NCBI GenBank assembly: GCA_947179485.1
Contig: OX359247.1
Coordinates: 40,214,801-40,278,800 of the forward strand
DNA from: Allacma fusca
Lineage: Eukaryota; Arthropoda; Collembola; Symphypleona; Sminthuridae
DNA length: 64,000 bases
Direction of reading: 5' to 3'
Made by a program: the position numbers and the translations under genes. Below, piece by piece: positions 12,731 to 28,200 of this stretch; within the stretch, counting starts at the first letter, position 1, and each line of letters begins with the position of its first letter. The notes beneath the pieces were generated by a model. That model had not been told where the DNA came from. It made no database searches and was given only the letters and a program-made list of their open reading frames with translations.

Positions 12731-12831
12731 ATGAGTACTTGGAGGATTAACCAGGTAACCATCTTAATAACAAGGAGCTGATCAGAAGAATAACAATCAG
12801 ACAACTGCTTTCTACCACTGAATCACCAATG
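12731..12831 (-). mobile_element. Composite SINE-like repeat, near-complete copy (tRNA-Gly-like head plus 18S-like tail)
   Basis: On the minus strand the head CATTGGTGATTCAGTGGTAG begins at 12831 and resembles the 5' half of tRNA-Gly (GGTTCAGTGGTAGAAT). At 12756, 75 bases on, comes ACCTGGTTAATCCTCCAAGT, which agrees with the 5' end of 18S rRNA at about 21 of 25 positions by eye. The same two blocks in the same order and spacing occur at 27647. No poly-A tail or target-site duplication was identified. Confidence 0.6.
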
Positions 12832-13189
12832 AATACACGTTATAATCTTATTGTTAGTCTAAAATTAACTCCGGCCTAACGGTTGCAGTATACGAAAGAT
12901 GATTTCAACGCCGGCCTTCCCTGTATGTACATATAGCCAGCCTTAAAATTATTACAGCTATACAATCTAACTTTACTTCGAAGATGAATAGGAATTGTAA
13001 GGATTTTGCCAAATACCTCTGGCTCTTCTCAAACTGAGTCGTGAGAAGTTGAAGGCACTTAGGCACAAAACTCGTTGATGTGGTTTGCACTGACATATCG
13101 TGGTACCGCCAGTTGTTAAACTACAGGAACTGCATTCTAAAGTTTAATCGCTAATCCATGTAAATATTTGTACAAAATAGTAGCGTGGC

Positions 13190-13249
13190 AGGCATGTCTA
13201 CTGACAGGATCAACCAGGTAATGGATAAGTAAATCGCTAATGAATACAT
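13190..13249 (-). mobile_element. SINE-like repeat, internally shortened copy
   Basis: The minus strand reads ACCTGGTTGATCCTGTCAGT from 13219, then AGACATG. That is about 23 of 25 positions of the 18S rRNA 5' end. A head-like CATTAGCGATTTA begins about 22 bases earlier, preceded by GTATT as in the copy at 12831. The usual 75-80 base spacing is therefore reduced by about 50 bases. Confidence 0.5.
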
Positions 13250-16200
13250 GTTTGTCTGAACGGTCCGTCCTGCATGTCAGGTTTGATAGAGAAAATTTGT
13301 TAGCTACTACTAGAATATCGAGTTGTGCATTCCGTCGAAATTCTGATTTTAAAAGAATCAGCTCCTTGTTCAGTTTCAAAACATCCTCGGAGGAACACGT
13401 GAGTGCATACCTGAGGAGAGTACAAGTGAGAAGCGGTAGGTTAATTTTGAATAGGAGCTTTAAAAGGCACCTCCACCGTGGCTGGCATAATGAAACGTGT
13501 GTGCACTGCTAATTAATGATACTTAATGATGATTACGTCTGAAAACGGAGAGGGAAGAGTGATAGAGCAAGCCTGTTGTTTTTCCTTTCCACACTTAAAT
13601 ACACAATAATACACACACAGACACATGCACACTCTCAGGTAAACTGCTACCTTCGGAGGGTACACTCAAACCCTAACCTTCCATCCCATTTGAGCATGCC
13701 CATTCATTGGAGTCGTTGGAAAAATGTAATATAATTGCAATATGCCTCATGGAAAAAGTTGGATAAAAACGAACCAAAATTAAGGTTGCTTATGATAATT
13801 ACGAAAAATACTTTTGGAAATATACGTTTAATATAAGAAAGCATGGTAAGGTGTCCATTTCATAGCTTTAACAACCCCTGACATTATTATGATTATAAGA
13901 CACACACGTTCTAACACACACACACACACACACACAGACATACGCTCCAACTCACGTATGTACCTACAACCATATAAAATGTAACAACAACCCTGAGATC
14001 CATTTTTTTGGGATAATTCAACGGCTGAGTAAGAGTTTCCTGCACCATTTTTTTCTCTCTCTCTTTTTTCCTAATGTACTCCTTCCATCCTATACACCGA
14101 GCAAAGGCAAGACGAGAGGCGAGCATGAAAATTTGACTTTTCCTCAAAAACAAGTTTTTCGATTCGCTTGTATGCACTTTCATTATTTGCCCTTTTTTCA
14201 TCCAATTCCCTCTCCCTGCCTAAATAATTCTGCTAGAAATTCACTGCTACACAACTCCCAAGCGTTACTTCTCTCTCTCTCATTACCACCACAGTCCGAA
14301 GGATTTAATTTCCCAAATTTTGCACAGCTCTGGTTAAATGTAAAAACCACATAATCACATTCTACTTATACTCTATGTGGCTCATACCCCCGACAATGTG
14401 AGAACGTCAATGTGCAGTCCACAATGGAATATTAAAAATAATTTTTAATTACATACTCCAACTCATACGCCGACTGTGACTCATTTGGGAAGCGAGAGAC
14501 AAACGCAGCGTGCGATCCCTGTCCAAGACTTGAAAAAACCTTCGGCTATTATACACTTATCAGGTTTTCTTGCACACTCGGAAAACAAGAACAACAGCAA
14601 GTTAATATAGCGGAGATGCTAAAAAAGGTGCCTAAAGCTTTTCCAATGGAATATGGAGTAAAATAACTCTATGGTGTAAATATAAGCGTGTGCATATGTA
14701 CTGTAGATACTTATATACCATCGTAGTGGAGGAACTGACTATGTATATACTCGGAGCAACTTACGCAAAGAAGTAAGTATAATAGTATGTTCTAGGGCGG
14801 TAATAATTTTCTTCAAGTTGAACGATGTGCGAGGTAGGTGAAGCTTCAACTGTTGATTCAAAGACCGGAAATAATTACCAGTTTTCCAATGCTCTTCTTC
14901 TCTCCAACTCTTTCACATATTCTCTTTTATGACGAGTTTTATTTTTCATCCGCTTCTTATATCCTCAACTGTACATTTACATTCTACTCTCCCCCGCTTG
15001 TCTCTATCCTCTTATAATATATACCTGTTAATAATACTTACTTTTCCAATTTGTTCGTGTCTGGATATATTCTGAAAACCATCCTGAGCAAGAAGTTTCA
15101 AAAGTATTTATTCCCCGTGAACAAAATAATTCTCTTTCCTTTTCATAGGAACTATTTTTTAAAAAAAACTATCCAGCTTAGTGTTAAACCTTGCAAAATT
15201 CATTCCAATCCAGAGCATATCTCCAATGGCAATTTAATAAAAGAAACAAGTCTCGCCATGGGGAAAAAGTGACGAAAGGAATATTTGTGGAGTAATTACT
15301 ATACCGCAAGGAAAAAAGATAGCAGACGGAGAGGGATTGAGCCAGTTGAAGGAGCAAGAGATATGATATAAAAAACAATTTTCATATCCTGAGTCAAATG
15401 AGACCAAGTGAACCATTTGGTGGCTGAAATCAAGTGCATATACATATATGTAGATATAATATATGTATACATGTCTACACTATACAAGGAACTCCTATAA
15501 GGAGGCACTGGTCATGTAGTCGCAGATGCCTCAAAGAGAATAAAAAGCGTTCCCTTAAAAGTTAAGAGAGGTTATAAACGCTTATTACTCAGAGTGGAGG
15601 GGGTGCGTTTAACAACCCTGAAAAAAGGCTCTTTGTTTTTGTGCGGTTGAGGGTAATATGTGGGTGCCCTTAAATGCTCATAAGAACGGTATATTCCGGA
15701 GCCAGGACTAACAATTTAATAACAATGGGTAAACACAAAGTGGTCAACGAGAGGAGAAGCGGATTAAATCCTCTTAATGGCAAATGATACGGTTCTTACT
15801 GCATTTCAACGTATCCTATTCTACATATGTATCTAGTACATGAATGTAATATTGTGTAAGTACCTTATGGATGTCAGTGCTTGTACAGTATAAAATAATG
15901 CATCCTTTCAAGAGCCCTGGAAGGATCAGCGTGATTGAACCCCCACAGAAAATTACTAATTGCTCCACTCAAAAAAATCAACTTGGCCCGTGTTTATATG
16001 TGAACCTCCTTCCTGCCTCTTTGAGCCCTTTGAATTCTTTCCATAACATATGTTTCCATAGGTTCTTTGAGATTTTTATTTTTTACAGAATTCTTTTTTG
16101 GAATCAAAAATATTTTTTGACTGTGACGAACTTCCTTTTTGAAACTTTTCAGTCTGGACTGTTTTCAATGAAAGTAAATACCTGGAACGTAGGGTTTGGT

Positions 16201-16257
16201 GACGGAGACTGGGAAAAATTCAAAAAATGTAAAAAGTAAGAAAAGTAAAAGGCTCAC

Positions 16258-27400: not shown

Positions 27401-27646
27401 TTGATCAATTTCCTTGAAGCTTTGTGAATGCATTCACACCTCTCATAGTTTTACTACGTGTGGTGGAGGGGTCTCTGTAGCCGGTTTTAGAGCTTTTCCT
27501 TTGTTGGCTCTCCAGAAGGGAGGGAATGCAAACAACAGGACTACAAGTTAGCAGAGAGCCGTAAAGAGTTCGGGCAAATGTTTGACGAAGTGCAGATTTT
27601 ATGGTAACTAATTCATATACTACAATATATACTTATAAGTTGTAAT
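24465..27646. other. Upstream of the N-terminal GATA exon; possible leader and promoter zone, no gene recognised
   Basis: Parts of 24950-26500 are richer in GC and CpG than the surroundings and could hold a 5' leader exon or promoter of the minus-strand GATA gene. I could not identify a start site or a first-exon donor with confidence. A frame at 25428-25688 (minus) resembles no known protein. CT tracts lie at 26701-26722 and 26759-26780. Confidence 0.35.
26701..26780. repeat. Paired (CT)n tracts
   Basis: Two CT runs of about 20 bases each, same orientation, 36 bases apart. Confidence 0.93.
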
Positions 27647-27753
27647 CATTGGCGATTCAGTGGTAGAATACTAAACTCCTGGGCCTTGAAAGGCAAAGGA
27701 GAGGGCAATGTTGGTTTCCCTTTGTTACCTGGCTAATCCTGTCAATATAGTCA
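27647..27753 (+). mobile_element. Composite SINE-like repeat, near-complete copy
   Basis: The head CATTGGCGATTCAGTGGTAG at 27647 is tRNA-Gly-like with an A-box. At 27727, 80 bases on, is ACCTGGCTAATCCTGTCAAT followed by TAGTCA. Order and spacing match the copy at 12731-12831 on the other strand, so head and tail belong to one unit. A stretch resembling a shortened B-box (GGTTTCCC) lies at 27713-27720. Confidence 0.6.
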
Positions 27754-27828
27754 GGGGAAGATAGGATCTATGGACAAATATTTCGCAATGAAATCAACAG
27801 AATTGCCAAACAGTAGTCCATGTAAGCT

Positions 27829-28200
27829 CATCATTGGTGGTTATAACTCCTTGGAAGTAATTCCAATGGAGCTTGTTTGTGTATGTGTGAGCAGTAAGAA
27901 AAAACTTTGTTAGTTTCCTATCTTTTCCTATAAGAACATCATGGAGCAAATAAAACTAAGATTGAAAGCTGCTTACGAGCCAGCTTAAATTTATCGCACT
28001 CAGTTATATCTACTTTATACCTAGTTAATCCTGCCAGTAGTCAAAGATTGTTTGATGATCTCAAATCTGTAATCAAATTAAAATCTGTTGGATGTATACA
28101 CCTCAATCTCATGTGTATGGGCTTGGAATAGACTGTTATACCTGGTTAATCCTGTAAGTAGTCAATGGCAGTGTCTCACGACTCTCTGTAGTCAAATTAA
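27829..28200 (+). repeat. Cluster of partial SINE-like units: one head and two tandem tails
   Basis: A truncated head (CATTGGTGGTTATAACTCC) starts near 27831. It looks like the 27647 head with an internal deletion, since both continue into AACTCCT(T/G)GG. Two tails start at 28019 (ACCTAGTTAATCCTGCCAGT, then AGTCA) and 28140 (ACCTGGTTAATCCTGTAAGT, then AGTCA), 121 bases apart. Both are followed by a related segment ending in TCAAATTAA. With the copy at 27647 this forms a same-strand array of degenerate units. Confidence 0.5.

Follow-up and report, generated by a model that had tools for sequence, protein, structure and literature searches.

Clustered copies of the 5′ ends of 18S rRNA and tRNA-Gly around a GATA-1/2/3-like gene of the springtail Allacma fusca

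What are the two short blocks that recur around a GATA-1/2/3-like gene on chromosome 3 of the springtail Allacma fusca? The window analyzed here (64,000 nucleotides [nt]; contig C10:40214801-40278800) lies around this gene, and the original prediction placed in it a composite short interspersed element (SINE), joining a head that resembles glycine transfer RNA (tRNA-Gly) to a tail from the 5′ end of 18S ribosomal RNA (rRNA). We find instead that the locus holds two families of very short 5′-end copies, one of 18S nt 1-26 (tails) and one of approximately nt 2-25 of tRNA-Gly(GCC) (heads), each having its own consensus and occurring in a few small genomic clusters, of which that at the GATA gene is the largest. 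We tentatively favor an explanation by which pieces from the 5′ ends of RNA genes were amplified locally, their cores at the GATA locus being kept as DNA elements with a putative, probably cis-regulatory, role. The copies at the locus are as follows (window positions):

639 bp left of the window: tail (18S nt 1-26), 25/26 to 18S, the best copy of the locus
10545..10570, plus strand: tail (18S nt 1-26), 23/26 to 18S
12732..12757, minus strand: tail, 22/26 to 18S, 74 nt downstream of the head at 12831
12808..12831, minus strand: head (tRNA-Gly nt 2-25, with G10A), 22/22 to CATTGGTGATTCAGTGGTAGAA
13195..13220, minus strand: tail, 24/26 to 18S, preceded by a weak head-like stretch at 13221-13242 (by eye)
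27647..27670, plus strand: head with G10A and one further change (T8C), 21/22 to CATTGGTGATTCAGTGGTAGAA
27726..27753, plus strand: degenerate tail, 79 nt downstream of the head at 27647, differing at 6/26 motif positions
28018..28043, plus strand: tail, 24/26 to 18S
28139..28164, plus strand: tail, 23/26 to 18S
31207..31230, minus strand: head without a tail, 22/22 to CATTGGTGATTCAGTGGTAGAA

The recurrence of both blocks on both strands was correctly predicted, with three heads and seven tails at the locus (including the degenerate tail and the one left of the window); six tails (seven counting the degenerate one) and three heads lie inside 32 kb. The tails announced at 10546, 28019, and 28140 start at 10545, 28018, and 28139. 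A head proposed at 31230 is present in full, while one proposed at 27831 is weak (its first ~12 nt match, and it is absent among the matches at ≤6 mismatches). For the shortened copy proposed at 13219, the tail is found at 13220, but its head part is only head-like, and weakly so.

Chance occurrence of heads and tails is rejected by Markov-sequence and reversed-probe controls. With up to four mismatches, the 5′ 25-mer of 18S has five matches in the window vs. zero in any of 100 order-3 Markov sequences, while the reversed probe has none; heads, with up to two mismatches, occur three times in the window vs. never in 100 order-3 Markov sequences. In a 104-kb self-comparison with simple sequence filtered, heads or tails make up each of the five top-ranking repeat pairs (E up to 0.005), and at E 0.97 two tail pairs stand alongside two unrelated pairs. 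Blast comparison among the copies limits their similarity to ~24-36 nt at heads and 23-30 nt at tails. Under limits of four mismatches for a head and six for a tail, neither occurs in 18 ten-kb pieces from elsewhere or in the 10 kb right of the window, and the 30 kb left of the window contain one tail only (at -639). The matches, boundaries, numbers, and clustering of the motifs are matters of direct observation.

As had been proposed, the tails match the 18S 5′ end, and they do so when compared with the 18S gene of A. fusca itself. In a comparison of the locus with the ribosomal DNA (rDNA) of A. fusca (a 10-kb piece, 5,000 of whose letters are N, together with the 1.5 kb upstream of it), 18S nt 1-26 are matched by several copies, the best at 25/26 (E 5.5e-5). 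The next-best rDNA matches to the locus, at 16 nt, do not surpass the reversed control (16 nt), so that no other rDNA stretch compared clearly exceeds that control. The T before ACCTGG was numbered nt 1 because mature 18S starts with UACCUGG in many eukaryotes. Agreement with 18S, put by eye at ~23/25 in the original prediction, is 23, 24, and 24 of 26 by count at 10545, 13220, and 28018. A degenerate B-box that resembles 18S by chance had been offered as the alternative; this is not supported, given that the match spans 26 nt and begins at the 18S 5′ end. Beyond the 26-nt core, the GATA copies show no contiguous rDNA by a p test (p 0.41-0.96 downstream; p 0.14-0.83 upstream).

Does the 5′ end of 18S recur elsewhere? 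Genome-wide (here and below, 392,743,791 bases in 91 contigs), TACCTGGTTRATCCTGYCAGTAGTCA with up to three mismatches has 56 matches (reversed control 0), of which 37 fall within rDNA arrays close to contig ends and 19 outside them. A control 26-mer from inside 18S has 34 matches, with 32 in terminal arrays and two elsewhere; therefore, the 5′ end of 18S is in excess outside the arrays (19 vs. 2, or 16 vs. 2 without three coding-like matches, and with one internal 26-mer as the control). The three matches (C8:67.70, C1:15.02, and C1:34.37) sit in triplet-rich, coding-like sequence (by eye) and are probably unrelated: they mark a triplet-rich, coding-like repeat family in which a 26-mer comes, probably by chance, to within 2-3 mismatches of the 5′ end of 18S. 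Ten of the 19 non-array tails are at two loci, namely the GATA locus (six) and C8:61.79 Mb (four, all minus, within 1.1 kb); the others are at C1:77.35 Mb (two) and C5:2.67, C8:9.54, C8:13.33, and C10:51.56 Mb (one each). The flanks of all 19 were read. The tail at C10:51.56 Mb runs on as 18S (by eye), and those at C1:77.3478 and C5:2.67 are followed by decayed 18S (p 0.003 and 0.01, respectively). The tail at C1:77.3465 shows no 18S past the core by the same test (p 0.14 or more), nor, judged by eye only, have an isolated exact 26-mer at C8:9.54 Mb and the tail at C8:13.33 Mb. The arrays carrying 18S 5′ ends, near contig ends of C1, C8 (both ends), C9, C10, C12, and C74, represent subtelomeric rDNA on several chromosomes.

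The heads match nt 2-25 of tRNA-Gly(GCC) except for the change of G10 to A. Matches to CATTGGTGATTCAGTGGTAGAA with up to two mismatches number 40 genome-wide (reversed control 0), comprising 32 of G-type (GGTGG or GGCGG, as in tRNA-Gly) and eight of A-type (GATT). Fourteen of the G-type matches were read, 12 of which are intact tRNA-Gly(GCC) by ARAGORN (69-71/71 identical); all 14 tRNA-Gly genes read have G10. The tRNA 3′ end, matched by position, is in place in 31/32 G-type heads (the exception being C1:18010792) vs. 0/8 A-type heads. The A-type heads are confined to three loci: the GATA locus (three), C10:41.555 Mb (three, all minus), and C1:41.636 Mb (two, both plus); the C10:41.555 Mb cluster also has one further copy with three mismatches and a more diverged one (by eye). 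Alignment of the sequence downstream of 10 heads to tRNA nt 26-71 gives p 0.086 to 0.996. The A-type heads do not qualify as tRNA genes or pseudogenes, because none of the eight has the 3′ half of the tRNA in place; ARAGORN identifies no tRNA gene or fold here, Rfam at the gathering threshold gives none, and two Rfam E-value scans of 3-4 kb include no tRNA or small-subunit rRNA family among the matches listed. A cluster of tRNA-Gly(GCC)-type matches at C1:17.87-18.06 Mb contributes 22 of the 40 matches to CATTGGTGATTCAGTGGTAGAA.

GATA-locus tails begin at 18S nt 1 and stop at nt 26, and heads begin at tRNA nt 2; hence both are 5′-complete, 3′-truncated RNA copies. Tailless retropseudogenes (Schmitz and colleagues; PMC5322556) are likewise structural RNA copies that are 5′-complete, 3′-truncated, and without an A tail; in that report, they are therian and dispersed, with target-site duplications and LINE1, and include two 18S examples, both 5′-truncated. 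Unlike those, the springtail pieces are 24-26 nt long and clustered, have a variant consensus, and show no target-site duplication at the two composites tested.

Do heads and tails form a single element? For two of the three heads at the locus, a tail follows downstream on the same strand at 74-79 nt (p 0.00056 if placement is taken as uniform, an overstatement since both motifs cluster), and the copies are all minus in the module at 12732-13220 and all plus in that at 27647-28164. The spacing link and the common strand within modules are real at this locus. Both predicted pairs exist, but at distances of 74 (12831) and 79 nt (27647), and the partner of the 27647 head is a degenerate tail. A degenerate or very low-copy composite SINE, reduced to its conserved blocks, would account for these two pairs and for the weak shortened one, yet we regard it as unlikely. 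The exact composite occurs once in 392.7 Mb (by an exact 28-nt requirement, which would miss diverged composites), and paired heads and tails are not enriched genome-wide, an outcome that the original prediction itself named as refuting. At other loci, heads and tails occur separately: the five A-type heads of the other two loci have no tail at ≤8 mismatches in the surrounding 3.0 and 3.7 kb, and stretches of 0.4-1.8 kb at C8, C1:77.35, C5, and C10:51.56 contain no head at ≤6 mismatches. Head and tail have no similarity to each other, and the blocks share none beyond the motifs, which leaves no common body or 3′ end. The longest flanking direct repeats of the two composites are 4 and 5 nt (null means 5.1 and 5.5), so that the target-site duplications expected of a SINE are lacking. 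The proposed A-box is altered, although the match of the head to tRNA-Gly(GCC) stands: G10A is present in every A-type copy, and in 9/9 aligned heads it breaks the A-box consensus, while the tail's GGTTRATCC is two bases short of the B-box consensus. A tRNA-derived SINE is also not supported by the absence of a dispersed whole-unit family and by the restriction of the eight A-type heads to three loci. The springtail motifs have the tRNA-Gly-like head in common with tRNA- and rRNA-derived SINEs but differ from them in body, dispersal, target-site duplication, and A-box, and in having a single composite. No description of an 18S 5′-end SINE or of such motif clusters appears among the papers listed in searches of the open-licence PubMed Central literature, and exact motif patterns have no match in viral contigs, a result that says little about arthropods.

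If not a SINE, might the motifs work through RNA? An RNA-level motif of one transcript is rejected because copies are on both strands, which fits DNA-level rather than transcript-level elements. Putative sites for small RNAs (5′ tRNA-Gly and 5′ 18S fragments, or antisense guides), acting on transcripts or chromatin, would agree with the 24-26-nt length, the 5′-terminal position of both motifs, and their high information, all of which suit base-pairing recognition; Argonaute complexes reportedly contain fragments of rRNA (PMC8053083). However, the motifs are on both strands of the gene and G10A departs from tRNA, and we judge such sites decidedly unlikely. There is also only a small likelihood that 5′ tRNA and rRNA fragments resembling small RNAs were written into DNA and maintained as putative 24-26-nt recognition sites at few loci, including the GATA gene; if this were true, a new class of cis elements would have its origin in small-RNA biology. 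Clusters of microRNA-like hairpins would also present repeated 22-26-nt cores in same-strand clusters, but are extremely improbable: 24 copies in two placements (48 folds) give z from -1.35 to 0.86, with inconsistent arm pairing.

The consensus of each family departs from its RNA. Core information is 43.4 bits (13 tails) and 44.0 bits (nine heads), uncorrected for sample size, and the flanks have 0.33 (tails) and 0.52 (heads) bits per column. The 13-tail alignment leaves out 27726, C1:77.3478, C5, C10:51.56, and the three coding-like matches, and the nine-head alignment leaves out the most diverged head; the tails were gathered by core match, which favors the core. All nine aligned heads have T1 and A10, where tRNA-Gly has G1 and G10. 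Of the 13 aligned tails, 10 have A at position -1, where 18S has C, and the tail consensus has either A or G at position 10 and either C or T at position 17. An own consensus and homotypic clustering near a transcription-factor gene would be expected of putative long-footprint protein-binding sites that resemble the RNAs by convergence and not by descent. This is very doubtful, as chance would hardly produce two independent 24-26-nt matches that each start at an RNA 5′ end, and an intermediate with RNA-gene flanks is partly seen at C8.

How, then, might the motifs have arisen? By the explanation we tentatively favor, 18S-derived and tRNA-Gly-derived fragments would have entered the genome and multiplied locally, leaving traces of a 78-nt 18S-derived unit at C8:61.79 Mb; the GATA locus would have retained just the 24-26-nt cores as DNA elements, protein-bound or guide-read, that are probably cis-regulatory for the GATA gene (a putative role). 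This order of events is inferred from sequence, as are both selection acting on the cores and any role in regulation. This explanation is supported by the recurrence of 5′ ends in particular, as given by the non-array 18S counts (19 vs. 2) and by the tRNA 3′ ends (0/8 vs. 31/32), and also by the separate consensus of each family, the sharpness of the cores, and the clustering given above. Exapted repeat fragments retained as cis-regulatory elements are a known class, which the springtail cores resemble in being short, of repeat-like origin, and in noncoding DNA of a developmental-type gene; unlike that class, their source would be RNA-gene 5′ ends, with several copies per gene locus (any constraint being putative).

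The main rival is neutral local multiplication, whereby rDNA and tRNA-Gly fragments were tandem-duplicated or repeatedly inserted and are decaying, with sharp cores reflecting short inserts and core-based searching; we consider this possible, if somewhat doubtful. Several observations weigh against retained cores, and some of these favor the rival directly. At C8:61.79 Mb (C8:61787601-61789400), the four good copies are preceded by 18S nt ~45-77 (upstream p 0.003, 0.023, 0.003, and 0.053), and five copies (diverged fifth included) are spaced 231, 161, 541, and 157 nt apart, for which 78 is the only period in 40-150 to fit so well. The local alignment of 28018 to 18S extends 148 nt, with a modest gain (56.5 vs. 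a best null of 47.5 from 30 nulls); this, like the 18S traces past 26 nt at C8, fits decay of longer fragments. Head flanks are alike in 8/90 comparisons (p<0.02), several of them holding another motif. The genome searches used tail and head patterns and hence sampled copies that kept the core. Motifs of ~44 bits exceed usual protein binding sites in length, and the other clusters have no GATA finger nearby (in a search scoring best candidates only) and no homeodomain exon within 0.4 Mb among the best candidates listed. Neutral multiplication would additionally explain the 18S downstream at C1:77.3478 and C5:2.67, the tail that continues as 18S at C10:51.56, and the isolated exact 26-mer at C8:9.54 Mb.

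Against neutral multiplication, the GATA copies have no 18S past 26 nt by the p test and no 78-nt spacing (3.74, 1.55, and 5.94 units), their cores remain at 22-25/26 with flanks near random, and A10 and T1 are common to heads at three loci. The C8:61.79 Mb cluster, with its traces of a 78-nt unit, resembles rDNA-derived tandem arrays or pseudogenes, whereas the GATA copies, which lack rDNA flanks and this spacing, do not. Ordinary SINEs, rDNA pseudogenes, and usual binding sites would not lead one to expect cores so long and so similar that agree with the 5′ termini of two housekeeping RNAs and cluster at one regulatory gene. If the cores are maintained, they would provide a traceable case of RNA-gene fragments turning into regulatory DNA; if they are not, they would indicate a route by which RNA-gene 5′ ends multiply locally.

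Where do the motifs lie relative to the GATA gene? Two open frames in the window are relevant:

16168..16455, minus strand: open frame encoding the N-terminal zinc finger of GATA type (PF00320, E 3.2e-17)
19023..19928, minus strand: open frame containing PPTPPKDTTPE, the probable N-terminal exon of this GATA gene

The best solved-structure relative of the finger at 16168-16455 is GATA-3 (7.1e-45), with GATA-1 also close, and a second GATA finger is ~7 kb left of the window. A Pfam search gave no match for the frame at 19023-19928; its assignment is based on the PPTPPKDTTPE stretch, which we take to be that of GATA factors. By the exon layout predicted from these frames, the exons of the two fingers would flank the motifs at -639, 10545, and 12732-13220, and the motifs at 27647-31230 would be located upstream of the N-terminal frame. 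Five more GATA-finger matches, in ~80 kb at C12:38.12-38.20 Mb, represent a second GATA gene group. Across the whole window, GA and CA microsatellites are very abundant.

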